NCBI GenBank assembly: GCA_019428815.1
Contig: JAHYJW010000005.1
Location: forward strand, 1 to 51,847
Length of the DNA: 51,847 bases
Direction: 5' to 3'
DNA from: Patescibacteria group bacterium
GTDB lineage: Archaea; Nanobdellota; Nanobdellia; Pacearchaeales; GW2011-AR1
Below, one piece after another: positions 17,492 through 35,584 of the stretch. The translations under genes were made by a program, and so were the position numbers. Within the stretch, counting starts at the first letter, position 1. Every line of letters begins with the position of its first letter. Under the pieces are notes generated by a model that saw only the letters and a program-made list of their open reading frames with translations, was not told where the DNA came from and ran no database searches.

Positions 17492-18328
<837 letters not shown>

Positions 18329-18519: not shown

Positions 18520-19143
18520 TTACTCTTTTTTTTGATCTTTATTTTGGTTTTTTTCTTGTTTAACTCTCACTTTTACTCTTTTGAGCATCTTTTCTTTCAT
18601 ATTTTCAGGGATAAATACCCTCTTTTTACCATTTTTTTCAATTATTTCTTCAATCAAACCCTCACTTTTCTGTTTTATACGATTCAAATGACCTCTTACT
18701 GTTGATCTCTCTTTACCTAAAATGGCAGAGACATCTTCATAACTCAATCTCATATCTGAATTTAAAAGAATCCACACGATTGCTCTTTCTGTTACTGAAA
18801 ATTGGTCAAAATTTGGTGATTGAACAGCTGTTTGAACAGCTGTTTGAACAGCATAAACACCTGTTTGTTTATCAAACAGCTGTTTGGGTGTTTGAAATTG
18901 CCTGTTTGGTTTTAGTTCATTCATTATAGAAATCACATTTTTTAATCCCTCTATTTCTTTATTAACCGACGACAAAAGGATTTTAATGTCTTCAATATCT
19001 TTTTTTTGTAAATTTTTTTCAGAATCTAGGTGTTTAATCCAAGCACCCAAAGAGGTAATATCTTTTTTTACCGATTCAAAGCCCTTTTTTGTATCTTCTT
19101 TTAAGGCATCAACCCCCTTTTTTCTAAAAAACCAACCAAACAT
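18520..19143 (-). CDS. Coiled-coil + linker + winged-helix/HTH DNA-binding protein, same architecture as 17492-18328
   Basis: MFGWFFRKKGVDALKEDTKKGFESVKKDITSLGAWI...; linker VYAVQTAVQTAVQS; HTH FSVTERAIVWILLNSDMRLSYEDVSAILGKERSTVRGHLNRIKQ. Confidence 0.75.
   Translation of the reverse strand: MFGWFFRKKGVDALKEDTKKGFESVKKDITSLGAWIKHLDSEKNLQKKDIEDIKILLSSVNKEIEGLKNVISIMNELKPNRQFQTPKQLFDKQTGVYAVQTAVQTAVQSPNFDQFSVTERAIVWILLNSDMRLSYEDVSAILGKERSTVRGHLNRIKQKSEGLIEEIIEKNGKKRVFIPENMKEKMLKRVKVRVKQEKNQNKDQKKE
18822..18912. repeat. Cluster of AACAGCTGTTTG palindromic iterons within the CDS
   Basis: gaacagctgtttgaacagctgtttgaacagcataaacacctgtttgtttatcaaacagctgtttgggtgtttgaaattgcctgtttgg. Confidence 0.9.
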
Positions 19144-19261
19144 ATCATTATGTATCTTTTATCCTTTAAAAATCTTTTTCTTTTTCGACGACAATTCTTT
19201 AATTATACTCTTTTAATATGTTTAAAAGGGGATCCTTAATTTGACTTGATTATGTGTCGAA

Positions 19262-19285
19262 GAACCTCGATTTCTAATGGAAAAG
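19262..19285 (-). promoter_or_regulatory. ORB-like element
   Basis: Minus strand CTTTTCCATTAGAAATCGAGGTTC, close to the 15983 and 16084 elements. Confidence 0.6.
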
Positions 19286-19291
19286 GGCAAA

Positions 19292-19360
19292 TAAACACCC
19301 CCAAACAGCCTGTTTAAACACCCCCAAACAGCTGTTTAAAAAATAAACACCCTTAAAACA
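19292..19360. repeat. Iterons TAAACACCCCCAAACAGC(C)TGTT x2 plus a partial copy TAAACACCCTTAAAACA
   Basis: taaacacccccaaacagcctgtttaaacacccccaaacagctgtttaaaaaataaacacccttaaaaca. Confidence 0.9.
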
Positions 19361-19446
19361 ATGCTTAATCTTTGTTTAAAAAACTCCTTTTCACGACGAT
19401 AAGTACCAAAAAAAGGTTAAATAAGAATTTTCAAATCCTCTTTATT

Positions 19447-19467
19447 TGCACTAAGATAACCTTAGTG
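19447..19467. repeat. Inverted repeat CACTAAG-ATAAC-CTTAGTG (copy 1)
   Basis: tgcactaagataaccttagtg; 7-bp arms. Confidence 0.85.
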
Positions 19468-19805
19468 AACACCTGCCCCCCAAAAATAATGAATTTGAAA
19501 TTTTACCGCCCTATCACTAAAAATAAAGTAGACTTTTTCCTCTCTAATGTTTTAATCTTTATACTCTCATTTTTTGTTAAGATGTTCTTATTCTTCTTTT
19601 CTTGGTATTCGGGCTCTTAATTTTTTCTTAAAATTTAAAGTGCTTAGTATTTCCAAGAGGATTGATTAAAAAGAGTGTTTTTATTGTGCCCTTGGTTTAA
19701 GGAATGATAAACTCAAAAATGAACACCCCCTTTTCTTAAGTTCCTTTTTTAGATCTTAAACTTCCTTTTTGATATCAATACAATCCTCTAAAATAATTAT
19801 TCCGT

Positions 19806-19825
19806 GCACTAAGATAACCTTGGTA
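19806..19825. repeat. TGCACTAAGATAACCTTGGT (copy 2 of the inverted-repeat element)
   Basis: 19/20 match to copy 1, same orientation. Confidence 0.85.
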
Positions 19826-20069
19826 TACGGGAACCTTAAAAATTAAATTTAACAGAATTTCAAATGCTTTTTAGATGATATCCTAATGTAAAAACCCTCT
19901 AGTCTAATTTTCTGAAAAAAGAGCTTAATTTGGCTCATTTAAGACCTTTTTTTTAGAAATATCGTTAAATTTATATACTTTGGGTGCGTGTAGTGAACGT
20001 GAACCAGCAAACAAATGCCCTTAGTTCACAAGGCATTTCCGTGAGAATTACAAAAAACCTAAAGAAACA

Positions 20070-20091
20070 TGCACTTTCTACCCTAAGTGCA
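20070..20091. repeat. Inverted repeat TGCACTT-TCTACCCT-AAGTGCA just upstream of the recombinase ATG
   Basis: tgcactttctaccctaagtgca; 7-bp perfect arms. Confidence 0.8.
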
Positions 20092-20106
20092 CACCAAACC
20101 TAAAAA

Positions 20107-20928
20107 ATGGGGCAAAATTTAAGCTCAGATAAAGATAATAATCCTATAAAACCTAAAGCCGCAATTTATGTAAGGGTCTCCACTGAAGATCAAGCGAAAC
20201 ACGGAATTTCTTTAGCTGCTCAAGAAGAGGCCTTAAAAAACTATTGTAATGCTTTAGGATATGAAATTTTTGATATTTATAAGGATGAGGGAAAATCTGC
20301 GAAGAATATTATTCAAAGGCCCAGAATGAAACAGATGTTAGAAGATGCTCAATTAAGAAAATTTCAAGCAATCTTTACTTACAAATTAGATAGGTTCTCA
20401 AGAAGTTTAATGGACTTAATTACTACAATCGAAAAGCTAAAAGAGTGGGGAATTGATTTTGTTTCTTTACAAGATAAAATAGAAACAACTAGCGCAAGTG
20501 GGAAGTTGATGTTTCACATCATTAGTGCATTTGCCGAATTTGAGAGGAATGTAACAAGCGAAAGAACAAAGTTCACAATGAATAAAAAGTTTGAGGATGG
20601 GGATTTGATAACTCGTGCTCCCCTTGGATACAACGCAATCAATAAAAAGCTTGTTCCAAAAGAAGATTCTTATATAATTCAAGAGATTTATCAAACCTTT
20701 CTTAACACAGATACCTCACTAACACAACTAGCAAAAAAATATAATCTTTCTGTAAATGGGTTAAAAAAAGTACTTTCTAATGAGACCTATCTGGGAAAAA
20801 TCAAATTTGCAGGAAAAGTTGTTAAAGGTAAACATACACCCCTGATATCCCCCGAACTTTTTGAGAAGGTTCAAAAGAAATTAAAGGGGGGCATAATCTT
20901 TAAAGGGATTAATAAAGAAAATTATTAA
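20107..20928 (+). CDS. Serine recombinase (resolvase domain + compact recombinase domain)
   Basis: AAIYVRVSTEDQAKHGISLAAQ, YKLDRFSRSLMDLI, FAEFERNVTSERTK, RAPLGYNA...NGLKKVLSNETYLGKIKFAGKVVKGKHTPLIS. Confidence 0.93.
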   Translation: MGQNLSSDKDNNPIKPKAAIYVRVSTEDQAKHGISLAAQEEALKNYCNALGYEIFDIYKDEGKSAKNIIQRPRMKQMLEDAQLRKFQAIFTYKLDRFSRSLMDLITTIEKLKEWGIDFVSLQDKIETTSASGKLMFHIISAFAEFERNVTSERTKFTMNKKFEDGDLITRAPLGYNAINKKLVPKEDSYIIQEIYQTFLNTDTSLTQLAKKYNLSVNGLKKVLSNETYLGKIKFAGKVVKGKHTPLISPELFEKVQKKLKGGIIFKGINKENY

Positions 20929-20978
20929 GAAAAAAAACAAATAAAAGATTCAAAAAAGATATTTCTAGGGCGCCTTAT

Positions 20979-21449
20979 TTAATAAATACCTACGAGAGGG
21001 AGAATTCCCCCTAAAAATAGGATACTTATAAAAAAAGCAGATTTATATAACTTAAACCACTTTTTTTGTTCATGTAGGGCAACAAAAGAGTAACTTAAAT
21101 CACTTAAAATATTTACCCCAAAAAAAATTAACCCGATTTTTAATCCCCCAAAATTTCCTAGAATTGTGCCTATGACATTAATAAGAAATCCATATCCCAA
21201 AATGAATGTGAAAAAAGAATATTTGTTCCATTTATCAGGATGTTTTGAATATGCTTGTCTACTTCTGCTAAAAGCAGAACTCAAAAGGAGGGGGATAGTA
21301 ATTGTTATCTGCAAAGAGAAAAGGCCATTTTCATGAAAAAGTTCTGGACTTATATTAGCAGTAAAAATGAAAAAAGTAAAACTAGCTCCCAAAAGCCATA
21401 AAGTTATAGATGCCCTAGATGCAGATTTAAGCTTGTGGTAATCCTCCAT
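20979..21449 (-). CDS. Four-TM-type membrane protein, hypothetical
   Basis: 156 aa hydrophobic ORF. Confidence 0.6.
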   Translation of the reverse strand: MEDYHKLKSASRASITLWLLGASFTFFIFTANISPELFHENGLFSLQITITIPLLLSSAFSRSRQAYSKHPDKWNKYSFFTFILGYGFLINVIGTILGNFGGLKIGLIFFGVNILSDLSYSFVALHEQKKWFKLYKSAFFISILFLGGILPLVGIY

Positions 21450-21545
21450 CCCTTAAAAGATTAAAAGATATTTATAAAATTTCCCCTTTACTGTAAATAT
21501 CAAAAAGCATTTTAAAAATTTTTTAAAATCTGCTTAAGACAAAAT

Positions 21546-21591
21546 AAGTTTAATGGACCTAATTACTCTCCTTGAAAAGCTAAAAGGATTT
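21546..21591 (+). pseudogene. Remnant fragment of the serine recombinase gene (SLMDLITLLEKLKG)
   Basis: aagtttaatggacctaattactctccttgaaaagctaaaaggattt versus 20403 aagtttaatggacttaattactacaatcgaaaagctaaaagag. Confidence 0.75.
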
Positions 21592-21633
21592 TCCCAATAA
21601 ATTTATATTTATAGCAAAATTTAGGGTATTATT

Positions 21634-22116
21634 ATGAAAATAAGAAACGGAAAACTAACAGATAAGAAAGAATATTTGAAAACTCAAAAAGAAGCTTTTC
21701 CTAATATTAATACTAAAAGAGATTCCAAATTCTTTGAAGAAAAAATTAAGAATAAAGAAATCTTCGTTTTGGAAGAAAAGGGTGAATATGCGGGACACAT
21801 TTGTTTTGGAAAGCATTTGTTAAATCCGCCCTTTGTTGGTTCAATATTCATTGAAGAATTAGCAGTAAAAGAAAAATTTCGGGGAAAAGGATTTGGGACT
21901 AAACTAATGGAAAAGTTAGTTAAGTTTTGTAAATCTAAGAAAATCCCCACCATACATTTAGGAACAGGGGATACGGGAAATAGCAAAGTGATGAGATATT
22001 ATGAAAAGCAGGGATTTAAAAAAGTCGGTTGGCTTAAAGATATTAACCCTAATTCTGAATACAACCGCCCCCAATTTTTCTATGCAATTATGATAAAGGA
22101 TTGGAAGAAACAATAA
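21634..22116 (+). CDS. GNAT family N-acetyltransferase
   Basis: IEELAVKEKFRGKGFGTKLMEKLVKFCKSKKIPTIHLGTGDTGNSKVMRYYEKQGFKKVGW. Confidence 0.9.
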   Translation: MKIRNGKLTDKKEYLKTQKEAFPNINTKRDSKFFEEKIKNKEIFVLEEKGEYAGHICFGKHLLNPPFVGSIFIEELAVKEKFRGKGFGTKLMEKLVKFCKSKKIPTIHLGTGDTGNSKVMRYYEKQGFKKVGWLKDINPNSEYNRPQFFYAIMIKDWKKQ

Positions 22117-22211
22117 AGGGTAAGTTTGAGTAATACTACGCATAACCTCAAATTTAAGGGGGGTTTTGCTTCACAAAAAATTATTCTATACTCCTTTGTT
22201 TAATAACCAAC

Positions 22212-22760
22212 TTAAGGAGAAGAAATGTCTTTATATCTATCTAGTGTTCTTTCCAAAAAATGACTCGAATTTCTCGCAGAAAATTGGTGGGATAAACTTA
22301 CTGAGTTGAAATATCTTTGATTAAGTCTATTTAAAAAATAATCTAAGGTCATTTGAAGTGTTCTTTCCCAAATCATGGGATCATTTTTTTTACCCTGTAA
22401 AATTTTTCCATAGGGTAGGATTAATATTTCAGAAGTGTTATTTTCGTAATTTCTAAGGGGGCTATCTTTTTCAGTAATAATAACCGGACGCACAGAATTT
22501 TCCAAGGCTTTCTTTGTAATTTCAGCGCCTTCTAGAGTTTCTAACTTGTAATCAGAAAAGACAAATTGATACCAATCCCCATTATTTGAAAATTGGTCCC
22601 CCTGAATCATCTCTATGGCTTTTTTTGAATCTGATGCATAATCTACTCTTAATCCAACCCCCTCAAGATACTCCTTCGCTGCGAAAAAGTTCTCTTCAGA
22701 GGGGTCAACAATTAAAACCTTCTTCGTTTCCAATCCTGAAATTTTTTCTTTAATATCCAT
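22212..22760 (-). CDS. Response-regulator receiver-like protein
   Basis: KKVLIVDPSEENFFAAKEYLEGVGLRVDYASDSKKAIEMI...FVFSDYKLETLEGAEI. Confidence 0.6.
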   Translation of the reverse strand: MDIKEKISGLETKKVLIVDPSEENFFAAKEYLEGVGLRVDYASDSKKAIEMIQGDQFSNNGDWYQFVFSDYKLETLEGAEITKKALENSVRPVIITEKDSPLRNYENNTSEILILPYGKILQGKKNDPMIWERTLQMTLDYFLNRLNQRYFNSVSLSHQFSARNSSHFLERTLDRYKDISSP

Positions 22761-22797
22761 TTTTATTTTTTTTTAATTTTTAATTGATTATATAATT

Positions 22798-23133
22798 TTA
22801 AGCAGACCACTCCTGAATCTCTAAAAAACTTCTATCCCACTCTGGATAAAACTCATCAAATTCCTCCAATCTTTCAGGAAGACTTCCTCCAACCCCAATA
22901 ACATAACCTCCTTTTTTTCTTGTTTCTTCCGCGATAATCCTTCCTCCATAAGCTGCGTTGGGAAATTCAAGGTTTGTTATAACTAATCTATAGCAATTTT
23001 CTCCGACCTTATTAATTCCTTCTTCTAATGTTTTAGCAGAGTCTACTCTAAATGAATTACCTAAAATACGTTTTAACAAAGTTCTAGTTTTTTCATCTTT
23101 TTCAACTAAGAGTAAATCTCCCATCTCACTCAA
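22798..23133 (-). CDS. Degenerate receiver-like domain protein
   Basis: DLLLVEKDEKTRTLLKRILGNSFRVDSAKTLEEGINKVGENCYRLVITNLEFP. Confidence 0.6.
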   Translation of the reverse strand: MSEMGDLLLVEKDEKTRTLLKRILGNSFRVDSAKTLEEGINKVGENCYRLVITNLEFPNAAYGGRIIAEETRKKGGYVIGVGGSLPERLEEFDEFYPEWDRSFLEIQEWSA

Positions 23134-23354
23134 AATTTTTAAGGGTTTATAAACCTTTCGTATGTTACTACTACTAAATAACTATCAATCCTGTTAATCA
23201 ATTAAAAATACTCGAAACCTAATTTAAGCGTACTAGAAAGGCACAATTAAGAAAAAAGCGCAGAAGTATACAAAGAAAAAATAATCAAATTATTAGAAAA
23301 ATAAAAATAGAGGGGGATAAATCAAACCACCTGTATTATGGTTTAATCTTTTCT

Positions 23355-23942
23355 TTAGATAACTGAAGCACGAATAATTATTACATCCTCTAGGGGTTTA
23401 TTTTGAGAATTTGTATTTACTCGTGATATTTCATCCACAATCTCCATTCCTTCAATTACCCTCCCAAAAACAGGGTGCTTCCCATCAAGATAGTTATTAT
23501 CTACAACATTTATAAAAAATTGACTTCCACCGGTATTTGGTCCAGCATTTGCCATTGAGATCGTACCTCGATTATTTTTATCTAAACCAGTTCCAGTGAA
23601 TTCGTCTTTAATACGGTATCCGGGATTTCCAGTTCCCGTTCCTAAGGGACATCCCCCTTGTATCATAAAATTTTCAATTACCCTATGAAATATAAGCCCA
23701 TCATAAAATCCCTCACTTACTAACTTCTCAAAATTCCCTGCAGTAATTGGCATTTCTTTGTACAATTCGAGGATTATATTCCCTCTATTTGTTTCTAACA
23801 AAACTTTTGTATTTTCTCCATCTTGATTAAATATAGAATGTCCCACTATCAAAGGGCCCATTATAACATAACTTCCAAAAAGAAATCCAAGGATCAAAAT
23901 TATCCCTAAAACTAAATAAATGGTTTTCTTTTTAATTTCCAT
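23355..23942 (-). CDS. Membrane-anchored cyclophilin-type peptidyl-prolyl isomerase
   Basis: N-terminal [49 protein letters not shown]. Confidence 0.95.
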
Positions 23943-24141
23943 ATAAAGATACTTCTTTCTTAATTTTTATATTTTTTGATTTTAGTATACTCTACCGGCC
24001 CATTTAGTAAAAAAATCACCCTTTAACCCCCTTTTTAACCCCCTTTTTAACCCAATCTCGTCTCCTTTTAACAAAGCTTAAATATGGCCATTTATTTATT
24101 TAAATAATAAAATCGAATTGGAATTTTTCCAAAAAAGAAGA

Positions 24142-25329
24142 GTGAGAATACTTATGTTTGGGTGGGAACTTCCTCCCTTTAATAGCGGGGGCTTAGGAAC
24201 AGCTTGTTATGGTTTAACCAAGAGTCTTTCAAATAAAGGAATGGAAATTAGTTTTGTTTTACCAAAAAAAGTTAATCTAAACCTTGATTTTATGAAGTTA
24301 ATTTTTGGCGAAACAGATGATATGCCGATGAACCCTCTTTTTTCTAATCCTTACCTTAGTTCAAAATCTTCAAAGGAAGCCCTCAAATCAAAATCTCTTT
24401 ATTATGCTAATTCTCTGATTGGTGAAGTGCTAAGATATGCTTCTGTTGCGGGCGATATCGCAAAAAAGGAAAATTTTGATGTAATTCATGCTCACGATTG
24501 GCTTACTATGAGGGCAGGAATAGAAGCAAAAAAAGCAACAGGGAAACCACTTATTGTTCAAGTCCATGCAACAGAATTTGATAGAACTGGGGGGAATAAT
24601 AATCAATTAATTTACGAATTAGAAAAGGAAGGAATGGAAGCAGCAGATATTGTAATAACTGTTAGTAATTATACCAAAGGAAAAGTAGTAGAACATTATG
24701 GAATCAACCCCAATAAAATTCGCGTTGTTCATAACGGTGTCGATTTTGAAGATTATGGAGTTAATGAACTCTCGGAACTTAAAAGAAAAAACAAAATAGT
24801 ATTATTCTTAGGAAGGATTACACTTCAAAAAGGTCCAGATTATTTTATTTATGCCGCAAAAAAAGTTTTGGATTATATGGAAGATGTCCTTTTTATCGTC
24901 GCAGGTTCAGGAGATATGCAAGAGTTCATGATTAATAAGAGTATCGAATTGGGAATTTCCGATAAAGTTCTTTTTACTGGTTTTTTAAGGGGCGCAGATA
25001 TTGAAAAAGCATACAAAATGGCAGATGTTTATGTTGTCCCCTCTGTTTCTGAACCCTTTGGTATAACTCCTCTAGAATCAATTTCAAAAGGAACCCCTGT
25101 TATTCTTTCGAAACAATCTGGAGTTTCAGAAGTAATAAACCACTGCCTTAAAGTTGATTTTTGGGATGTGAATGAACTAGCTAACAAGATTATTTCTGTT
25201 CTGCAGTATCCCTCTTTAAAAAATTGTCTTAAGGAACACGGTTTAATGGAGGTAAAGAAAATTACATGGGATGCTCCTGCTCAAAGGTGTATTGATATCT
25301 ATAATGAACTTTTGGAGGTGAAATGTTAA
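24142..25329 (+). CDS. Glycosyltransferase family 4 (glycogen/starch synthase-like)
   Basis: GTG start proposed at 24142 (MRILMFGWELPPFNSGGLGTACYGL); track uses TTG 24118; GRITLQKGPDYFIYAAKKV, VPSVSEPFGITPLESI. Confidence 0.9.
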   Translation: MRILMFGWELPPFNSGGLGTACYGLTKSLSNKGMEISFVLPKKVNLNLDFMKLIFGETDDMPMNPLFSNPYLSSKSSKEALKSKSLYYANSLIGEVLRYASVAGDIAKKENFDVIHAHDWLTMRAGIEAKKATGKPLIVQVHATEFDRTGGNNNQLIYELEKEGMEAADIVITVSNYTKGKVVEHYGINPNKIRVVHNGVDFEDYGVNELSELKRKNKIVLFLGRITLQKGPDYFIYAAKKVLDYMEDVLFIVAGSGDMQEFMINKSIELGISDKVLFTGFLRGADIEKAYKMADVYVVPSVSEPFGITPLESISKGTPVILSKQSGVSEVINHCLKVDFWDVNELANKIISVLQYPSLKNCLKEHGLMEVKKITWDAPAQRCIDIYNELLEVKC

Positions 25330-26588
25330 TGGTTTCTGTATGTTTTTATTTTCAGGTGCATCAACCTTATAGGGTTAGAAAATACCCTGTTTTTGATATT
25401 GGAAAAAAGACAGATTATTTTTCAGATAACTCTGAGAGTAATTTAAATAATGAGAAAATTCTTAAAAAAGTCGCAACAAAATGTTATCTAAACGCAAATA
25501 AAGTTATCTTGGATTTAATTAAAAAGCATCCCCAATTTAAGGTTGCATATTCCTTCTCAGGCGTTATTCTCGATCAGTTTATTGAGTTTTATCCAGAGGT
25601 TTTAGATTCTTTTAGAGAACTTGTAAAAACAGGAAATGTGGAGATTTTATCTGAAACATATTATCATTCTTTATCTTTTTTATTCGACAAAGAAGAATTT
25701 AAAGAACAAGTCAGAGAACACAACAAAAAAATAAAAAAACTTTTTGATTACACTCCTAAAGTTTTTAGGAACACAGAACTTATTTATAATAATGACTTAG
25801 CAAAAACCGTAGAAGAAATGGGTTATGAGGGCGTAATTGCAGAAGGTGCAGACCACATACTCGGTTGGAAATCTCCTAATTTTGTTTATCAACCTCTGAA
25901 TAGTAAAATAAAATTATTATTAAAAAATTATAAACTGAGCGATGACATCGCATTTAGGTTTTCTGAGAGAAGTTGGGAATCCTGGCCCCTAACAACAGAA
26001 AAATTTTCAGAATGGGTTAACGGGCATAATGGATCTGGAGATGTAATTAATCTTTTTATGGATTACGAAACCTTGGGTGAACACCAATGGGAAGAAACAG
26101 GAATTTTTGATTTTTTAAGAGCTCTTCCTCAAAAAATTTTAGAGCATCCAGATAATAATTTCAAAACTCCTTCAGAGGTGATTAGGGATTATCCTTCCAG
26201 GGGAGAATTAGATTTTCCTTATTTTGTTTCTTGGGCAGATGTTGAAAGGGATTTAAGCGCTTGGCATAGCAATCAGATGCAACAGTCTTCTATGAACAGT
26301 CTTTATGCTTTAAAGGAAGATGTTCTAAAAACAAAAGATCCCGAGATAATTAAAACTTGGAGAAAACTTCAAACCTCAGATCATTTCTATTATATGTGTA
26401 CAAAATGGTTTGAGGATGGAGATGTTCATAAGTACTTTAATCCTTACGAAAGTCCGTATGAAGCATTTATAAATTTCATGAATGTTTTAAATGACTTAAA
26501 ATTAAGAGTATCAAAAAAAGAGATAAATGAAAATTCAGTTTTCCCAGAAGAGTTTAAAAAATATCCCGAAATAGAAGGTATTGATTAA
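25323..26588 (+). CDS. Glycoside hydrolase family 57 (alpha-amylase-like)
   Basis: VCFYFQVHQPYRVRKYPVFDIG..., FRNTELIYNNDLAKTVEEMGYEGVIAEGADHILGW, FMDYETLGEHQWEETGIFDFL. Confidence 0.93.
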   Translation: MLMVSVCFYFQVHQPYRVRKYPVFDIGKKTDYFSDNSESNLNNEKILKKVATKCYLNANKVILDLIKKHPQFKVAYSFSGVILDQFIEFYPEVLDSFRELVKTGNVEILSETYYHSLSFLFDKEEFKEQVREHNKKIKKLFDYTPKVFRNTELIYNNDLAKTVEEMGYEGVIAEGADHILGWKSPNFVYQPLNSKIKLLLKNYKLSDDIAFRFSERSWESWPLTTEKFSEWVNGHNGSGDVINLFMDYETLGEHQWEETGIFDFLRALPQKILEHPDNNFKTPSEVIRDYPSRGELDFPYFVSWADVERDLSAWHSNQMQQSSMNSLYALKEDVLKTKDPEIIKTWRKLQTSDHFYYMCTKWFEDGDVHKYFNPYESPYEAFINFMNVLNDLKLRVSKKEINENSVFPEEFKKYPEIEGID

Positions 26589-26662
26589 AAGCTTAAAGGG
26601 TCGAGATAACTGATTAATCCAATAGATTAAATTTATAATCAACACAAAACATTAACATAGAG

Positions 26663-27004
26663 TTGAAAGGAGGTGTGTGGGAAATGGAAAAAAAGATAAA
26701 AAAATCTTCAAAAACTTCTGTAAAAAAAGAAAAGAAAACAAAAAAAGGACCGATAAATGCTCCAGATGAATCTTGCTTTTGGGTCTGCAACGGCGCGGTA
26801 TTGAAAAATTTAAAAGATCTTGCAACAGCCTTAGAAGGCATGTCTGAGGAGGACTATGCTTTCCACGCAAATCCTGAAAAAAATGATTTTAGTGCTTGGG
26901 TAAGAGAGATTCTTAAAGATTCAGCTCTTGCTACATCTTTGATTAAAGCAAAGTCTAAAAAAGATGCAGTAAAGGCTGTTAAGGCTAAATTAAAGAGGTT
27001 ATAA
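26663..27004 (+). CDS. DUF5752-like protein within alpha-glucan cluster
   Basis: FWVCNGAVLKNLKDLATALEGMSEEDYAFHANPEKNDFSAWVREILKDSALATSL. Confidence 0.65.
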   Translation: MKGGVWEMEKKIKKSSKTSVKKEKKTKKGPINAPDESCFWVCNGAVLKNLKDLATALEGMSEEDYAFHANPEKNDFSAWVREILKDSALATSLIKAKSKKDAVKAVKAKLKRL

Positions 27005-27006
27005 TA

Positions 27007-28989
27007 ATGTCTAGACCTTTAGTTTTAGGGAATGGGAATGTGGTTGTTTGTATTGATAAATATGCCCAAATAAAAAATTTTTATTATCCTTATCCTGGGA
27101 AAGAGGACCATGTTAAAGGCCACCACCATAAAATAGGAGTTTGGGTTGAAGGTTCTTTTTCCTGGACAACTGCTCCAGGGTGGAATATTTCTATTAAATA
27201 TAAGAAGAACTCTCTTGTTGGAGAAACTTTCTTAACAAATAACTCTTTAGGTGTCGAATTAGTAATTAATGATATAGTTCATCCTGAAAAAAATATCTTT
27301 CTTAAAAAAATAAAAGTAAAAAACCTTTCAAACCAGAAAAAAAATGTAAGGCTTTTTTTAAACCAACATTTTAATATTGCAGGAGAGAACATTGGGGATA
27401 CTGTTTTTTTTCATCCCTATACCAATTCCCTTGTGAGTTATCAAGGAAAAAGATATTTTTTAATAAATGGCTTTTATAAGAAACAAGGATTTTTTCAATA
27501 CGCAACTGGAGCTGCAAGAGAGGGATCCAAAGAAGGGACATTTCGAGATGCAGAAAATGGGTGGTTAAGTGGTAACCCTATTGAACATGGTTCTGTAGAT
27601 TCAACTGTTTCATTTGATTTAAATTTATTTCCAGGAAAGGAAGAAACACTATTCTTTTGGATTACAATCGGTAAGAATTTAGAAGAAGTCAAAACCCTGA
27701 ATCGTTTTACTTTAAGAAAAACCCCTAATCAGCTTTTATTAGATACTGAAAAATACTGGCTTAAGTGGATTAAAAGAATAAATTTAGATTTCTTAAATTT
27801 AGACAAATCAATTGTAGACCTTTTTAAAAAATCTCTCCTAATTATTAAAACACACACAAGTCCTAATGGGGCAATTATTGCTTCTTTAGATACCGAGTCT
27901 ATGGGGTTAAAGAAAGATAATTATTCTTATATGTGGCCAAGAGATGGAGCTATGATTTCTAGGGCATTGGATAAAACAGGATACACAGAAATAACTGACG
28001 CTTTTTTTAATTTTTGTAAAGACGTTATAAGCAAAGACGGATTTCTTTATCATAAATATCTGCCTGATAAGTCTATTGGTAGTTCTTGGCACCCTTGGTT
28101 AAAAGGAGACAAAATTCAACTGCCTATCCAAGAAGATGAAACAGCGCTTATTTTAAGATCTCTTTGGAAGGGATATAAACAAAATAAAAGGAGAAAAATG
28201 TTGAAAGAACTTTATGCTCCTTTGATTAGAAAAGCAGCAAATTTTTTAGTAGACTTTAGAGATAAATCAACAAATCTTCCAAAAGAGAGTTATAATCTTT
28301 GGGAAGATAAATTGGGGGTTCACACTTTTACTTCTTGTACAGTTTATGCTGGATTAATGTCTGCACATTATTTTGCTAAAGAAATGAACAAGGTTCGAGA
28401 TGCTGGCAAATACCTCAAGGCCGCAAAAGAAGTCAAAGAAGCAATTTTAAAATATCTCTATGACAGAGACAAAGGCATTTTTGTTAATAGAATCTATCAG
28501 GATGAAAAGGGTAAGTGGAATATTGACCACACTGCAGATATCAGCACTGTTTACGGACTTTTTAAATATCGAGTTTTAGATGTTCATGATGAAAGATTGA
28601 CAAGGACTATGGAAACAGTTCTCTCTAAACTTTCTTGTCCTCACCATTCTAAAGGGTTTTTAAGATTTGAAAATGATAATTATTTCCGTATTAATAACTC
28701 TTATTCTGGGAATCCCTGGTTTATAGCTAGTCATTGGGTGGCGGAGTATTATATAATCAAAGCAAAAAAATTAGATGATCTAAAACCTGCTTTAGAGATC
28801 TTTGATTGGACAGTTAAACATGCTTTACCAAGTGGGATTTTATCTGAACAACTAGACCCCTTCACTGGAAATTCTCTTTCTTATACGCCACTTATGTGGA
28901 GTCATGCAAGTTTTGTAGTTGCTGTGATAGAGTATCTCAAAAAGAAAAAAGAACTTGAAAGAAATAAAAGAACCAGAAAAAGAGTTTAA
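27007..28989 (+). CDS. Glycoside hydrolase family 15 (glucoamylase-like)
   Basis: YSYMWPRDGAMISRALDKTGY, YNLWEDKLGVHTFTSCTVYAGL, ALPSGILSEQLDPFTGNSLSYTPLMWSHASFV. Confidence 0.95.
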   Translation: MSRPLVLGNGNVVVCIDKYAQIKNFYYPYPGKEDHVKGHHHKIGVWVEGSFSWTTAPGWNISIKYKKNSLVGETFLTNNSLGVELVINDIVHPEKNIFLKKIKVKNLSNQKKNVRLFLNQHFNIAGENIGDTVFFHPYTNSLVSYQGKRYFLINGFYKKQGFFQYATGAAREGSKEGTFRDAENGWLSGNPIEHGSVDSTVSFDLNLFPGKEETLFFWITIGKNLEEVKTLNRFTLRKTPNQLLLDTEKYWLKWIKRINLDFLNLDKSIVDLFKKSLLIIKTHTSPNGAIIASLDTESMGLKKDNYSYMWPRDGAMISRALDKTGYTEITDAFFNFCKDVISKDGFLYHKYLPDKSIGSSWHPWLKGDKIQLPIQEDETALILRSLWKGYKQNKRRKMLKELYAPLIRKAANFLVDFRDKSTNLPKESYNLWEDKLGVHTFTSCTVYAGLMSAHYFAKEMNKVRDAGKYLKAAKEVKEAILKYLYDRDKGIFVNRIYQDEKGKWNIDHTADISTVYGLFKYRVLDVHDERLTRTMETVLSKLSCPHHSKGFLRFENDNYFRINNSYSGNPWFIASHWVAEYYIIKAKKLDDLKPALEIFDWTVKHALPSGILSEQLDPFTGNSLSYTPLMWSHASFVVAVIEYLKKKKELERNKRTRKRV

Positions 28990-29020
28990 GTTTTTTAAGG
29001 ATAAATAACTCTAATTTAAA

Positions 29021-29608
29021 ATGGTATCCAAAAAGAATAAAATAAATAAAAGAGAAAAATTAAAAATCTTTGACGATAAATTCAAAGAAATTTTTTCTTC
29101 GCAGCTCTTTGTTATTGCAGGGGGATTAATCTCTGGGATTATTCTAGCAATGTACTCTGATAAAATTTTTATAATCCCCGGAATGTTCATAATTCTTCCT
29201 GGTTTTATGGCAATGAGGGGGGGAGTAAGCGGTTCTTTTGCTTCAAGACTAGCATCTGGCCTTTTTCTCAAAGTTATAAATCCCCAAAAGATAAATAACC
29301 CGATAGTGCGAGGGAATCTTGTTGCAGCATTTATCCTGAGTCTGATTATATCACTTGCTTTAGGACTTTTAGCATTTATTGTAGATTATCTTTTCATGGG
29401 AGTTATTCAACCAATGGTTATAATTCTTCCTTTTTTAGCAGGGGTTTTATCAAGCGTAATCTTAATCCCCCTCACACTTATTGTAACTTTTAAATTATTT
29501 AAAAAAGGCCATGATCCAAATAACATTATGGGGCCCTTTGTAACGACAGTAGGGGATATTGTTAGCATTTTCTCCTTATTGTTACTTTCAGTTTGGTTAG
29601 TAGTATAA
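29021..29608 (+). CDS. MgtE/SLC41-like divalent cation transporter half (1)
   Basis: GGLISGIILAMYSDKIFIIPGMFIILPGFMAMRGGVSGSFASRLASGL. Confidence 0.8.
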   Translation: MVSKKNKINKREKLKIFDDKFKEIFSSQLFVIAGGLISGIILAMYSDKIFIIPGMFIILPGFMAMRGGVSGSFASRLASGLFLKVINPQKINNPIVRGNLVAAFILSLIISLALGLLAFIVDYLFMGVIQPMVIILPFLAGVLSSVILIPLTLIVTFKLFKKGHDPNNIMGPFVTTVGDIVSIFSLLLLSVWLVV

Positions 29609-29617
29609 ATTTATAAA

Positions 29618-30325
29618 ATGAGAAATAATAAACAACAACTCTTAGAGAAGTTAAATAGACTAAAAGAAATTGAGAGAGAAAAACATCACCCTTTAATTCC
29701 TAAGGTTCATAAAAAACATAATATTTCTAAAAGAACATTATTCTATATAAAGGAATATCCTGACAGAAAGAAAACTACTAAAACAATTCTTAGAGAAAGT
29801 ATTAAAGTTCTTCTTTTTGCATCAATCATGAGTTCATTAGGCGGGATTGCCTTAGAAAGAATTGAAGAAGTTTTTCTTTCAATAGTGCCTTTAGTTATTC
29901 TTCTTCCTGCTTTAAATGATCTCGTTGGAAATTATGGAATCGTAATCTCTTCTAGATTTTCAACAATGCTTCATACAGGGAAAGTAAAAGAGAAATGGTG
30001 GAAAACGCCAGAGTTAAAAGTTTTATTCTTTCAGATATTACTTTTAACCTTAATTGCAGCTATTTTAAGTTCTTCAATAACCCTTCTTATAACATTTTTT
30101 TCTGAGGGGAGAATCTCATTTATCTTAATTCAAAAAATTATTCTGATGGTTGTAATAGACCTTTTTCTGATAATCGGGATTCTCTTTTTTATAGCTATTT
30201 TTGCAGGAATTCGAGTTTATAAAAAAAGAGAAGACCCTAATAATTTTTTAATTCCCATCACAACAGGAATTGCAGATTTTGCTAATATGGCTATTCTAGC
30301 ATTACTTGTTTTAATAATCTTTTAA
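29618..30325 (+). CDS. MgtE/SLC41-like divalent cation transporter half (2)
   Basis: VPLVILLPALNDLVGNYGIVISSRFSTMLHTG...EDPNNFLIPITTGIADFANM. Confidence 0.8.
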   Translation: MRNNKQQLLEKLNRLKEIEREKHHPLIPKVHKKHNISKRTLFYIKEYPDRKKTTKTILRESIKVLLFASIMSSLGGIALERIEEVFLSIVPLVILLPALNDLVGNYGIVISSRFSTMLHTGKVKEKWWKTPELKVLFFQILLLTLIAAILSSSITLLITFFSEGRISFILIQKIILMVVIDLFLIIGILFFIAIFAGIRVYKKREDPNNFLIPITTGIADFANMAILALLVLIIF

Positions 30326-30356
30326 ATACCCTCCTTTTGTCTTTTATAAATCAAAA

Positions 30357-31055
30357 ATGTGTAAAAATGAAGAAAAAAGTTTTAGACTCTCACCCTCTTC
30401 TCTTACACTCATGAAGGAGTGTAAGAGGTGTTTTTGGCTTACGCATCATAACATCTGGAAGAGACCAACCGGGATATTTCCTAGTTTACCTTCTGGTATG
30501 GATAAGATACTTAAAATACACTTTGATAAATTTCGAAAGGAAAATAAACTTCCCCCTGAATTGGCTGAAAGCATAGAATGTTCTGATATGAAATTATTTG
30601 AAAATGAAGAGCTTCTAAAAATTTGGCAGGATAATCGAAAGGGGATTTCTTGGATAGATAAAGAAGGAAATGAACTTCGAGGAGCGATAGATAACCTTTT
30701 GGTTAAGAACGAAAAAATTATTGTTTTAGATTATAAAACTAGAGGTTATGCACTCAAAGAGAATACTCATGAATATTATCAGATGCAAATGGATATTTAT
30801 AATTTTCTTTTTTATAAAAACAATTATCCCACAGAAAATTTTGCCTTTCTTTTATTTTATGTTCCTAAAGAAGTTTTACCTACAGGAGAAATTATCTTTG
30901 ATACAACTCTTAAAAAGATTAATACTAGTCTAGAAAATGCGGAAAGAGTCTGGAAAGATGCCTTAATGTTACTGCACGGAGATTGCCCTAAAGAAAGATG
31001 TGAGTGGTGTGAAAGAACAGAAAATATTCCCCAAAGAACAAAAACAGTTGAATAA
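30357..31055 (+). CDS. PD-(D/E)XK nuclease, Cas4/RecB-like with Cys residues at both ends
   Basis: SPSSLTLMKECKRCFWLT, RGAIDNLLVKNEKIIVLDYKTRG, QMQMDIYNFL, CPKERCEWC. Confidence 0.8.
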   Translation: MCKNEEKSFRLSPSSLTLMKECKRCFWLTHHNIWKRPTGIFPSLPSGMDKILKIHFDKFRKENKLPPELAESIECSDMKLFENEELLKIWQDNRKGISWIDKEGNELRGAIDNLLVKNEKIIVLDYKTRGYALKENTHEYYQMQMDIYNFLFYKNNYPTENFAFLLFYVPKEVLPTGEIIFDTTLKKINTSLENAERVWKDALMLLHGDCPKERCEWCERTENIPQRTKTVE

Positions 31056-31078
31056 CCCCTTCTTACTTAATTCTCCTT

Positions 31079-31564
31079 CTAATCTACCTTTGAATCTTCT
31101 AAAGATTTTTTACCTGGTTGAATATCTACAACTTTTATTTTGAAGAAAAGTTTTTCTCCTGCAAGAGGATGGTTTAAATCTAAAAGTATGTTTTCTTCAG
31201 TTACCCTATCTATTCTTGCAGGTATTCTTTCGCCATTAGGTCCTTGTAATATCAATATCATTCCAGGACTAGGCTCTTTACCCTCTGGATTTTTTGGGAG
31301 CACACTTTTTGGAATTTCTTTTTTAAGATCTTCTTTTATCTCTCCGTATCCCTCAGAAGGTTCTATAGAAAAATCTTTACTTTCCCCCTTCTCCATACCT
31401 AGAACTGCATTATCAAATCCGCCTATAACTTCCCCTGATCCTACTTTAAATTTTAAAGGTTGAGATTGCCCCTCTTTTTTAGAAGAATCAAATAGTTTAC
31501 CATCTTTAAGCCTGCCTTCATATTCTATTTCAACAATATCCCCTGGATTAATTTTTTGAGTCAT
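31079..31564 (-). CDS. FKBP/SlyD-type peptidyl-prolyl isomerase
   Basis: GDIVEIEYEGRLKDGKLFDSS, GSGEVIGGFDNAVLGMEKGE, DLNHPLAGEKLFFKIKVVDI. Confidence 0.95.
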   Translation of the reverse strand: MTQKINPGDIVEIEYEGRLKDGKLFDSSKKEGQSQPLKFKVGSGEVIGGFDNAVLGMEKGESKDFSIEPSEGYGEIKEDLKKEIPKSVLPKNPEGKEPSPGMILILQGPNGERIPARIDRVTEENILLDLNHPLAGEKLFFKIKVVDIQPGKKSLEDSKVD

Positions 31565-31676
31565 ATAAACTCCAATAAAAAAGGTTTTTTAAGTGTTCTG
31601 GTTTTTTGGTAAAAAATTTACAAAAAAGTTAAAAACTCCAAGAGTTTTATAATAAAAATCAAATCTTTAAAAGAGG

Positions 31677-32036
31677 ATGGGACCCCAAAACAGAAAACAC
31701 AGAAAAGATTTAGAGAAAATCGCATCAAGCCCTGAAAAATTTGGATTTCCAGTAAAAAATATAATCTCTGTTTCCATAGAAGAAAATCTTTTTCATAAAG
31801 GAAAATTAAGGGCCCAACCTGACATTATCATTCTCGAAAGAAAAGGAGAGAATAAACTAGTCCACATAATAGAATACAAAAGTAATGGTAATGGGGAACT
31901 TTTACAAAGAGCACAAAAGCAATTACAAAATGCAGTGGCTTGGTTTGGGAGATACAGGCCAGATATTGATTTAGAGGATATTTATACTTACATCATTTCC
32001 GGAAGCGACCAAAAATATAAAGGATTATTTAATTGA
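31677..32036 (+). CDS. Small PD-(D/E)XK nuclease-superfamily-like protein
   Basis: AQPDIIILERKGENKLVHIIEYKSNGNGELLQRAQKQLQNAV (PD...ExK pattern). Confidence 0.55.
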   Translation: MGPQNRKHRKDLEKIASSPEKFGFPVKNIISVSIEENLFHKGKLRAQPDIIILERKGENKLVHIIEYKSNGNGELLQRAQKQLQNAVAWFGRYRPDIDLEDIYTYIISGSDQKYKGLFN

Positions 32037-32103
32037 ATTTTATAATTAATCCCTTTTAATAAAATAATAAACCTTAGATAATAAAACATTTCTAAAAAAT
32101 AAA

Positions 32104-32448
32104 ATGACCCGAATGTGGAACCTGAATCCAGCATATCTTTGTACACAACATCTCTTAGGAGAGCATAAAGAGATTCATCAAGCAGTTGGAAGTATCTTAA
32201 AAGGAAGAAGTTTGAAGGGGCACCTAGAAAAAGGTCAGTTAGAGATTCATAATCTTAAAAAAAGACATGCCGAATTAGTAAGAGAAATGAAAAAAAGAAA
32301 TTTTAATCATAACTCCCCCCTCCCGGATTTTGAAGAATTTTATGCTGGAAAAATAGACCCTCAAAAAAATAAACTAGATTTAATGAAAAGGTGTAAAAAA
32401 TGTAGGGTTAGAATTAAAGATCAGGATAAGAAAGAAAAACAGACTTAA
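32104..32448 (+). CDS. Pyrimidine dimer DNA glycosylase/endonuclease V (DenV)-like protein
   Basis: MTRMWNLNPAYLCTQHLLGEHKEIHQAVGSI...KKRHAELVREMKKRNFNHNSPLP; conserved T2 and Glu at the DenV E23 position by eye. Confidence 0.7.
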   Translation: MTRMWNLNPAYLCTQHLLGEHKEIHQAVGSILKGRSLKGHLEKGQLEIHNLKKRHAELVREMKKRNFNHNSPLPDFEEFYAGKIDPQKNKLDLMKRCKKCRVRIKDQDKKEKQT

Positions 32449-32484
32449 CAAAGAATTTATAAATTTTATCAAGTTTTTTATTAA

Positions 32485-32733
32485 ATGATTCCTAAAAAAG
32501 AGAATAAGAACGTTAAGGAAAAAAAAGAAGACCCTCTTTCAAAAAATGATCCTAAATTTCCTAAGAAAGTTAAAAATAAACCAAATCTAAAAGTCACTAT
32601 CCTTTCTTTAATTGCAATAATCTTTTTGGTACTCACTTTCACAGTTCATTGGTTATTCATCATGGGCGCAATTATTATTATGCTAATAAATCAAAAAGAA
32701 TTAATCGGTAAGGAGGATAAATCTGAGATTTAG
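32485..32733 (+). CDS. Small two-TM membrane protein
   Basis: 82 aa with hydrophobic hairpin. Confidence 0.5.
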   Translation: MIPKKENKNVKEKKEDPLSKNDPKFPKKVKNKPNLKVTILSLIAIIFLVLTFTVHWLFIMGAIIIMLINQKELIGKEDKSEI

Positions 32734-33932
32734 AGATTTATCTCAAAAATTTCTTTTAGCGATTTGTTTATTATTTCTTCCATATCCAACTTTTTTAGTT
32801 CTTTTTCAAAAGTATCAATCTCTGTTTTAACACTGACCCTTTTACCTAAAAGACTACAACAATCCTTATACTCTTTTAAGCTTAAAAGATAAGTCCCAAT
32901 CTTTTCTGAGAGATTAATAATTTCTTGTTTATCATAAGTTAATAATGGGCGGAATATCGGAAGATTAATTTTAAAAGAACTGGCATTTATGTTTTCAAGT
33001 GTTTGGCTTGCAACTTGTGCGAGATTATCTCCCGTGACCAAACCTCTTAATCTTTTATGAACCTGTTCTGAATTTTTTTCAAGGGCTATCCTTTCACCTA
33101 ATTTTAGCATGTAATTTTTAAACATAACTACATCATACCTCTCGTCTATTCTCCCCTGGGACTCAAAAAAATAGATATAATATGGAATAAAGTAGACTTT
33201 AGAACTATACTGAAAATCATTTAAGATTTCAACTAGTTTTATGATTTTCCCCCCTAAAACATCCTTGTTTTCCTTATAAGTGTGAAAATGAAGGAAATCT
33301 ATTTCGCACCCCCGTTTCATCATTAACCAAGCTGCAACAATAGAGTCAATACCTCCTGAGAGTAAACAAAGAACTTTCCCGGAAGTTCCAACAGGCAATC
33401 CTCCCAATCCCTCAAATCTCTCAGTATAAACATAAATCTTGTCTGTAATTTCAATAAAAATCTTTTTTTCAGAATTTTTATAATCAACTTTTATCCCTAA
33501 ACTATTTGCAATCGAGCCAAGATTACTGTTGATCTCTACTGATGTCTTTGGAAATTTTTTATTAGCTCTTTTTGTTTTAAATGCAATTTTTTTTATCTTT
33601 TCTTTTTTTAATTGTTTTAAAATGCCCTTAACATAATCTTCAAGTTCATCTTGGTTGAGATTGATTTCCTTTACAAAAGAAAAATATTTTATTCCAAAAA
33701 CCTTTTTCAAGAGGGAAGTAACTTCCTCTGGGTTTTTAGATTCAAAATCACAAAAAATTCTTTTCTCTTTTCTTTGAATACCTCCTAATTTTATCTTAGC
33801 TCTAAAAGAAGACTTTTTTATGTTTTCTACTAATCTTCTTTCAAAAAAAGAAAAATGCCCCCCCTTTAAACCAATCTCAGCATGATGGACTAAAACTTTC
33901 ATTTCTGAAGAAGGGGGATTAATTTTTTTCAT
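32730..33932 (-). CDS. thiI: tRNA 4-thiouridine synthetase (THUMP + PP-loop)
   Basis: LVHHAEIGLKGGHFSFFERRLVENI, VLCLLSGGIDSIVAAWLMMKRG. Confidence 0.93.
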   Translation of the reverse strand: MKKINPPSSEMKVLVHHAEIGLKGGHFSFFERRLVENIKKSSFRAKIKLGGIQRKEKRIFCDFESKNPEEVTSLLKKVFGIKYFSFVKEINLNQDELEDYVKGILKQLKKEKIKKIAFKTKRANKKFPKTSVEINSNLGSIANSLGIKVDYKNSEKKIFIEITDKIYVYTERFEGLGGLPVGTSGKVLCLLSGGIDSIVAAWLMMKRGCEIDFLHFHTYKENKDVLGGKIIKLVEILNDFQYSSKVYFIPYYIYFFESQGRIDERYDVVMFKNYMLKLGERIALEKNSEQVHKRLRGLVTGDNLAQVASQTLENINASSFKINLPIFRPLLTYDKQEIINLSEKIGTYLLSLKEYKDCCSLLGKRVSVKTEIDTFEKELKKLDMEEIINKSLKEIFEINL

Positions 33933-34058
33933 TTTTAATTTAAAATTTATTAATATAAAAGTCTTAAGTTTGAATATCTTTTAAAAAATGATTTATCTTA
34001 TCTGATAAAATAAAAAAAGAGAAATAAAAAATTAAAAAAAACAAAGAAGTTTTGGTGT

Positions 34059-34526
34059 TTAGTAGCTTATATAACTAGATTTTCTTTTCTCTACTTCATC
34101 ATCCCCAAAATCTTCATCTTCATCCTCATCTGAACTCTCATCACCTGCAAAATCTTCATCTTCATCCTCATCTGAACTCTCATCCTTTATTTTTGGGATT
34201 TCTTTTTTGGGTTCTTCTTTTTTCTCCCCTCCTTTCTTTTCTTCTTTTTCTTCTTGGGGGATACTTTCTTCTTTACCTCTTGGAGGTCTTGCTTCTTTTA
34301 CAACGAGCTTTCTTCCTTCAACTTCCTTACCCTGCATTTCTTTTATTGCTTTTTCTGCTTCTGACTCGCTTTTATAGGTAACAAAACCAAAACCTCTTGA
34401 CCTTCCGGTGTATTTGTTCGCCATAACTAAAGCATCTTCAATTTTCCCGTATGGTGAAAAAAGTTCTTCGAGCTTAACTTTAGTGACACTCCAAGGCAGG
34501 TTTCCAACATAAATTCTCTTATCCAT
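34059..34526 (-). CDS. RNA recognition motif (RRM) protein with acidic repeat tail
   Basis: RNP2 RIYVGNLPW and RNP1 RSRGFGFVTY; tail DESSDEDEDEDFAGDESSDEDEDEDFGDDE. Confidence 0.93.
   Translation of the reverse strand: MDKRIYVGNLPWSVTKVKLEELFSPYGKIEDALVMANKYTGRSRGFGFVTYKSESEAEKAIKEMQGKEVEGRKLVVKEARPPRGKEESIPQEEKEEKKGGEKKEEPKKEIPKIKDESSDEDEDEDFAGDESSDEDEDEDFGDDEVEKRKSSYISY
34107..34184. repeat. Perfect 36-bp direct repeat at 42-bp period coding the acidic tail
   Basis: aaaatcttcatcttcatcctcatctgaactctcatc at 34107-34142 and 34149-34184. Confidence 0.95.
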
Positions 34527-34632
34527 TTAAGCCTCCGTTCTTTTAATTTAGTTTAGAACAAGACTAAGCCTGTCCATCTCTTTTTCTAGGAAAAAAACCA
34601 CTTTTATAAAGTTAACTATACTTTTTGGCTAT

Positions 34633-35157
34633 ATGAAGTGTGACAAATGCGGATATGAATCTAGTTTAAATAAGAATAAATGGGGTTTGATTATCTGTGA
34701 GATATGTGATATATTCTCTCCAAAAGACCAAGATTCTTTTAGAGACTATATGCTTGAAAAAATTGATGGTTCTACTCTTGAAACATTTAGAAAAAATTAT
34801 GTTTCTAACAGCGAAAAACAGAAAAAGACTATGTTAAAAAAAGCAACTCATGGTCGGCTTATGTCAAGGGCCCCCTTTGGTTATAAAATCGAGAAAGGTA
34901 ACCTTATCCCCTCTGAAAATCAAAAAGAAGTAGAAGAGATATTTGAAGAATTTCTTAACGAGGACATTAGTTTAAGAAGGCTCTCTGAAAAAAGAAACCT
35001 TTCAGTTAATGGATTAAAAAAAATTCTTAAAAATTTTACTTATATAGGAAAAGTTAAGTTTAATAATCAGATTTATCAAGGGAATCATAAACCTCTTATT
35101 TCAGCAATATTGTTCAATCGAGTTCAGGATAAATTAGAAAGAATGAAGATAAAATAA
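34633..35157 (+). CDS. Zinc ribbon + serine-recombinase DNA-binding (recombinase) domain, no resolvase catalytic domain
   Basis: MKCDKCGYESSLNKNKWGLIICEIC...LMSRAPFGYKIEKGNLIPSENQKEVEEIFEEFLNEDISLRRLSEKRNLSVNGLKKILKNFTYIGKVKFNNQIYQGNHKPLIS, clearly homologous to the C-terminal half of 20107-20928. Confidence 0.85.
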   Translation: MKCDKCGYESSLNKNKWGLIICEICDIFSPKDQDSFRDYMLEKIDGSTLETFRKNYVSNSEKQKKTMLKKATHGRLMSRAPFGYKIEKGNLIPSENQKEVEEIFEEFLNEDISLRRLSEKRNLSVNGLKKILKNFTYIGKVKFNNQIYQGNHKPLISAILFNRVQDKLERMKIK

Positions 35158-35179
35158 TCTTTTAAAAAAATTGTAACAA

Positions 35180-35584
35180 CTACCTGAAAGATTTTTGCCT
35201 TTTACGTCTAGCTTTACTATCCCCTGGTTTATAAGCTTCTTTTCTTCTAACATCTGCGACTAAAAGCCCCCTGTCATAACTAAGATAAGCTTTTTCTATT
35301 TCTTTGTTTTTAGTTGCTTCTAAAATTGCTCTTGCTAAAGCTAATCTCGCTGCCTCAATTTGTCCTTTTTCTCCTCCGCCTTTAACGGTTATTTCAAAGT
35401 CAAAACTAATTTTTTGAATTATTTCTTTAGCAATTCTTAATGGTTCTTCTATTTTAAGGCGATTTAACATTGGAAGATGTTCATAAGATTGTTTGTTTAT
35501 TGTGACTCTTCCTGTACCTTCTCTAGCAATTGCTCTTGCAACAGCAGTTTTTCTTTTCCCAGATGTGACTATTAATTTATCCAT
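35180..35584 (-). CDS. rps9: Ribosomal protein S9 (uS9)
   Basis: VTSGKRKTAVARAIAREGTGRVTIN...DVRRKEAYKPGDSKARRKRQKSFR. Confidence 0.97.
   Translation of the reverse strand: MDKLIVTSGKRKTAVARAIAREGTGRVTINKQSYEHLPMLNRLKIEEPLRIAKEIIQKISFDFEITVKGGGEKGQIEAARLALARAILEATKNKEIEKAYLSYDRGLLVADVRRKEAYKPGDSKARRKRQKSFR

Follow-up and report, generated by a model that had tools for sequence, protein, structure and literature searches.

What does a protein do that has the DNA-binding part of a serine recombinase and not its catalytic part, and which enzyme does it accompany? The question is raised by the first of two related genes in the window, i.e., the whole stretch of 51,847 nucleotides analysed here:

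34633–35157, + strand: RD-only gene; residues 1–27 C4 zinc core (HNH remnant), residues 28–78 helical linker, residues ~79–174 recombinase DNA-binding domain (RD)
20107–20928, + strand: intact small serine recombinase, PF00239 plus PF07508, 273 amino acids, without the C-terminal zinc/coiled-coil domain of large integrases

The RD-only reading frame starts with ATG and encodes 174 amino acids; the DNA upstream of it holds a divergent RRM gene. A Pfam search of the protein returned PF07508 (Recombinase) at residues 100–170 with 29.7 bits (cut-off 21.1, E 8e-7) and no match to the catalytic Resolvase domain PF00239, as had been claimed in the first-pass annotation. The close kinship with the 20107 gene, claimed there as well, was confirmed by BLASTP, with 48% identity to the 20107–20928 product over 122 amino acids (residues 47–168, E 3e-35); given this span, the likeness includes the long helix between the catalytic domain and the RD. 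These two genes are the only PF07508 loci of the window genome. An AlphaFold2 model built with 36 relatives (mean pLDDT 93.8) bore out the RD fold, which is preceded by two small strands and then helices. The best PDB matches of the model in Foldseek were the RD–DNA complexes of A118/Listeria serine integrases (4kis/6dnw, E 3e-6, probability 1.00), and 4kis was also found in a profile search with the protein (1e-9).

The N-terminal CxxC...CxxC pair (Cys 3, 6, 22 and 25) had initially been taken for a fused zinc ribbon. The pair is present; however, it is no foreign ribbon, as the four cysteines align with four that are invariant in the HNH domain of sister proteins (PF01844, E down to 5e-10). 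The serine recombinase of about ten genomes is directly followed by a gene, overlapping it in most, for such an HNH domain, complete or partly degraded, fused to an RD. The linker APxxxxxFxxYxxEKIDGxxLxTFRK is common to the window protein and its HNH-RD sisters, and the HNH histidine loop is kept in the sisters and deleted in the window protein, which lacks the catalytic HNH motif (E-x-H-H...N...CxxCH) and has the four structural cysteines alone left. The alignment contains graded stages: the HNH domain is complete in some proteins, lacks the histidine loop in others, is reduced to the C4 core (as in the window protein) or to a lone CxxC, or has a coiled coil in its stead. Cysteine alignment and graded stages together identify the ribbon as a degraded HNH domain whose structural zinc site was kept, and a path of protein evolution from HNH-RD fusion via zinc-core RD to bare RD is documented. 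This fused HNH is similar to the HNH of IscB (NF040563, E 7e-13), although the match is well under that family's cut-off. HNH-RD proteins whose genes overlap a serine recombinase gene were seen, for instance, at L020:5489-6100 and L025:6324-6947.

PF07508 is present in 74 of 112 genomes of one GTDB family, the named relatives being Candidatus Pacearchaeota/Nanoarchaeota MAGs. In a tree of 112 RD domains, 51 RD-only genes and two degenerate HNH-RD genes form one clade (93/85), apart from the RDs of the recombinases. The dN/dS of RD-only is 0.06–0.08 between close genomes, much like that of ribosomal protein S9, and this holds also between a genome with the tyrosine recombinase XerA and one with a serine recombinase; in the pair G118 (serine recombinase) and G098 (XerA), the RD-only proteins are 93% and the S9 proteins 80% identical. 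Low dN/dS and conservation argue for a working gene, not a remnant, and 51 genes in one supported clade under strong purifying selection argue for a stable architecture. As judged from these sequences, RD-only is an old orthologous family next to S9 in Pacearchaeota and no recent truncation. An intact resolvase domain at this place in relatives, named beforehand as the sign of a mere truncation, does occur in eight genomes; there, an intact recombinase lies within the slot beside S9 or close to it, and RD-only is not present as a gene of its own. These eight fit a decaying, functionless truncation of a serine recombinase; the strong purifying selection, the 51 orthologues in one clade and reading frames that are intact across many genera speak against it, and we regard it as refuted for practical purposes.

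The position of the gene is as constant as its sequence is constrained, within a variable slot defined by the following features:

19144–35179, no strand: variable slot from HTH18 to S9; contains the core site, cargo, the RD gene and a recombinase, which is the serine enzyme in the window and XerA in relatives
18520–19143, − strand: HTH18, the helix-turn-helix protein gene bordering the slot; family-wide synteny anchor, also in genomes without RD
35180–35584, − strand: ribosomal protein S9 gene, convergent with the RD-only gene; the other slot border
14729–15937, − strand: Orc1/Cdc6 gene, syntenic neighbour of the slot

In the fetched loci, gene order is nearly always Cdc6, a PRC-like gene, two small genes, HTH17, HTH18, the slot, S9, L13 and L18e, with RD-only as the slot member on the S9 side. 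Beside Cdc6, ORB-like repeats (TTTCTTATGGAAA, TTTCCACTGGAAATAGAGGGG) are located at window positions 15983–16260 and 17795–17818, one of them within the HTH17 gene, and this is likely a replication-origin region. In the single-contig genome G008, the locus beside Cdc6 lies ~38 kb from a GC-skew extreme, the ori/ter signal being ambiguous. The variable cargo between core and recombinase comprises APH-like kinases, a HAD hydrolase, a uridine-kinase-like protein and HNH proteins (L067:10230-11177, L073:9639-10637, L092:4086-4718, L086:4193-4786).

Several further observations concern other features of the window. Ten ACAG copies in the HTH17 gene (window 17822–17860), read as TDRQTDRQTD, could be a slippage (phase-variation) switch. 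A palindrome, AAACAGCTGTTT(G), recurs in the HTH17 and HTH18 genes and the following gap at window positions 17855, 18822, 18834, 18855, 18874, 19303 and 19326, as well as in the gaps of relatives (e.g., L119), and is a possible HTH operator. The common palindrome of the two convergent HTH genes had suggested invertible genes, but no long inverted repeats lie between the coding parts, and the idea was dropped. Sixteen consecutive C at the end of the contig (window 51817–51832) are probably an assembly or sequencing artefact.

Which recombinase occupies the slot differs between genomes. The genomes are MAGs, mostly 75–90% complete, and the loci were picked by RD or XerA hits, by which loci with neither enzyme were not fairly sampled. 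Among 56 complete loci (HTH18 and S9 both in the fetched locus), 28 contained XerA, 28 a serine recombinase and none both; given how the loci were picked, the lack of "neither" is no evidence, and the lack of "both" counts as evidence. On a ribosomal-protein tree, the XerA/serine state changes 19 times, at least 10 of these changes being forced by supported branches, and 10 independent genome pairs all went in opposite ways (p = 0.002). Switches occur within genera too, with XerA in G008, which belongs to the genus of the window, and in G098, G100, G038 and G167. The slot XerA passes the NCBIfam model XerA_Arch NF040815 (228.6, 257.9 and 234.8 bits; cut-off 220). No intact PF00589 tyrosine recombinase was found in the window genome, while one was present in 14 of 14 control genomes. 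The sole PF00589 trace in the window assembly is a short sub-threshold fragment with an internal stop (C1:151605-151835, L139).

An RD-only or HNH-RD gene is present in 26 of the 28 complete XerA loci, none of these with a serine recombinase, and in 21 of the 28 complete serine-recombinase loci. In 22 genomes, an RD or HNH gene follows xerA at −17 to +5 nt, abutting or overlapping, and is usually translationally linked; in some XerA loci (L113, L125, L101), the HNH domain is encoded on its own, by a gene lying upstream of the one for the RD. By these counts, the most constant partner of RD-only is XerA, not the serine recombinase. The proposal of a domesticated protein that binds DNA as a partner of the intact recombinase and occurs together with it is supported by the 21 serine loci, but a dedication to that recombinase finds no support, as the XerA loci carry the gene too.

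The sites in the slot were analysed likewise. A dif-like 28-mer (11+6+11), AGTTCGCACAA-N6-TTGTGCGAACT, occurs in ~32 XerA loci, one per locus and mostly just upstream of the recombinase operon. A search of 105 genomes with the pattern at one mismatch gave matches in 23, exactly one site each, most beside HTH18 or xerA. Four serine loci without XerA (L062, L066, L086, L094) keep dif-like sites at the same place, which we read as relics, the probable footprint of XerA displacement. The serine recombinase of the window has a putative core of its own:

19970–20031, + strand: serine-recombinase promoter/putative core, with TATA box TTTATATA, a degenerate palindrome, and half-sites GTGAACGTGAAC and CCCTTAGTTCACA
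20070–20092, + strand: further half-sites in inverted repeat, TGCACTTTCTACCCTAAGTGCAC, immediately before the recombinase start, found by inspection

Among relatives, the serine core reads TTTATATACTTAGGGCACCCTAA...GTGAAC...CCCTAAGTTCACA for recombinases with the RD type that goes with the ATT element described below, and ...CAATAAGG...TAAGGGAACCCTTATTGG... (TAAGGGAACCCTTA) for a clade with divergent RDs.

Besides the cores, the slot contains a second kind of element, designated ATT, a 27-bp near-palindrome (consensus TTAACTAAGCTAACCTAAGTGCACAAC, 31.6 bits) in 1–6 direct copies between HTH18 and the recombinase operon. The window has two copies:

19447–19473, + strand: ATT site 1, TGCACTAAGATAACCTTAGTGAACACC, 34 bits against the family matrix
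19805–19831, + strand: weak ATT site 2, TGCACTAAGATAACCTTGGTATACGGG, 13.9 bits, direct repeat of site 1

Sixty ATT sites were counted in 61 kb of gap as opposed to four in 521 kb outside, with an orientation bias of 56:4, and the strict pattern matched in 42 of 105 genomes and in none of the controls. The preceding ATT lies 46–505 bp (median 172) from dif, adjacent to the core as accessory sites are. In complete loci, ATT is found in 28/28 serine loci and 25/26 XerA loci with RD, compared to 0/2 XerA loci without RD, and its base composition is near-identical in XerA and serine genomes. HTH18 was rejected as the ATT binder; it is present without ATT and RD in many genomes and is thus not a likely candidate. 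ATT as the XerA core was discarded as well, as XerA loci have the separate 11+6+11 dif and the RD-less ones have dif without ATT.

Seven of the 28 serine loci are without a separate RD gene, though their recombinase itself bears the ATT-type RD. Divergent-RD serine recombinases have a tandem RD partner in 10/12 cases vs 0/22 of the others (Fisher p = 5e-7). A recombinase without the ATT-type RD, be it XerA or a divergent serine enzyme, is therefore nearly always accompanied by an RD partner gene, and since the divergent-RD enzymes combine a different core (TAAGGGAACCCTTA) with this tandem partner, the ATT array follows the RD partner. We infer from this co-distribution that RD-only binds ATT. 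Once species distance was removed, no covariation of ATT with RD-only divergence was detected, in a test of low power.

The earlier suggestion that the protein acts on the same sites as the intact recombinase finds support, as the two very probably have common half-sites (CCTAAGTGCAC in the array vs CCCTAAGTTCAC in the recombinase promoter/core). These probably common half-sites, a common RD (48% identity) and co-occurrence in 21/28 serine loci would suit a directionality factor of the intact serine recombinase, or an antagonist of dominant-negative type, in line with the first proposal; equal constraint on the gene in genomes without any serine recombinase (26/28 XerA loci), however, argues against such a general role and makes it very improbable. 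ATT-type half-sites (CCCTAAGTTCACA, TTAGGGCACCCTAA) also lie directly next to the TATA box and the start of the serine-recombinase operon, where RD-only, having a DNA-binding domain and no catalysis, might repress the operon and keep recombination rare. In XerA loci, however, ATT mostly precedes dif by some tens to hundreds of base pairs and does not coincide with a TATA box, and 1–6 direct copies are unusual for a single operator, so we consider repression unlikely as the main role, while it is compatible with an accessory one.

The direct repetition of ATT also evokes an integration platform, where ATT sites would be attachment sites for cassettes or small elements and RD-only (or HNH-RD) an adaptor or directionality factor, dimer resolution not being the main role. 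Direct copies ~250–600 bp apart, with small ORFs between them that mostly share one orientation, and variable cargo between core and recombinase are in line with this. Yet the ORF after the first ATT often belongs to one family (14 members), so the segments are no random set of cassettes; at ATT borders, neither exact gain nor exact loss of a cassette was found; and one dif per genome suits resolution better. An integron-like cassette array was discarded on the first two of these grounds and survives merely within the platform reading, which we hold to be rather improbable.

We favour the reading that RD-only is a DNA-binding accessory subunit of a chromosomal site-specific resolution module with an exchangeable catalytic recombinase, and put its probability at roughly 0.6. 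Counted against it were the RD-less genomes L119 and L120, in which XerA works without RD and ATT, the seven serine loci lacking an RD gene of their own, the lack of covariation between ATT and RD-only, the fit of the direct ATT copies and the variable cargo to an integration platform, and the position of the G008 locus beside Cdc6. As a catalytically empty subunit of serine-recombinase descent, RD-only would occupy the ATT array beside the recombination core, its dimers helping to build or restrict the synaptic complex as a topology- or assembly-controlling factor. The catalytic part would be exchangeable: XerA, the ancestral enzyme, would act on a dif-like core of 28 bp, and a small serine recombinase on a different core at the same place. 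The 20107 gene would be a case in which the serine enzyme has displaced XerA, with the RD-only gene and the ATT site of the window left from the module. That the serine recombinase replaced XerA, or was swapped back, at least ten times while the catalysis-free RD protein and ATT stayed and served either enzyme is a tentative proposal, to which we give slightly less than an even chance. The module presumably resolves chromosome dimers.

To our knowledge, Xer tyrosine recombinases are considered the almost universal means of resolving chromosome dimers. The kind of system proposed here, site-specific resolution with accessory sites, is known; the unusual part is the exchange of catalytic class.

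Chromosome resolution by XerA/dif is known in archaea (Cortez et al. 2010, PMC2958812), and the slot XerA, which passes NF040815, and the dif-like 28 bp (11+6+11), one per genome among the matches, conform with it. Unlike in that system, the Pacearchaeota locus adds an RD protein and an ATT array, the site lies beside xerA and Cdc6, and a serine recombinase takes the place of XerA in roughly half of the loci analysed. In Sin and Tn3 resolution, regulatory subunits at accessory sites help to build or restrict the synaptic complex (PMC2428073, PMC9943657); core and neighbouring accessory sites, with the same DNA-binding fold acting there without catalysis, are common to both (binding being predicted here), but here the predicted accessory binder has a gene of its own, devoid of catalytic function, which is found with a tyrosine recombinase as well. 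Xer–cer plasmid resolution, with PepA and ArgR as accessory proteins (PMC5357621), likewise pairs a tyrosine recombinase of the Xer type with a stretch of accessory DNA dedicated to it next to the core, whereas the accessory protein here is of serine-recombinase descent, not a peptidase or repressor. By analogy with res, Sin or cer, an accessory role may be inferred for RD-only. RD fold and long connecting helix recall large serine integrases (Resolvase plus Recombinase; 4kis, 6dnw), from which RD-only differs in having neither the catalytic nor the C-terminal zinc/coiled-coil domain and in its N-terminal HNH-derived C4 core or coiled coil.

In the available excerpt of a review on archaeal tyrosine recombinases (PMC8371274), no RD partner is mentioned, and archaeal serine recombinases are described as seen in transposons and never fully investigated; according to this review and PMC5357621, archaeal dimer resolution is FtsK-independent and its control an open question. 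In the open-licence literature, we found no description of a serine recombinase in place of chromosomal Xer, or of an RD protein that works with XerA.

Within one archaeal family, a serine recombinase of unrelated mechanism appears to have replaced XerA many times; the slot is a single, fixed one, and relic dif sites are the footprints. If true, this would be the first case of a serine recombinase taking over the chromosomal role of Xer, and RD-only the first accessory subunit common to two unrelated recombinase classes. A dedicated recombinase-derived accessory protein and a defined DNA array would make the control of archaeal dimer resolution directly testable.
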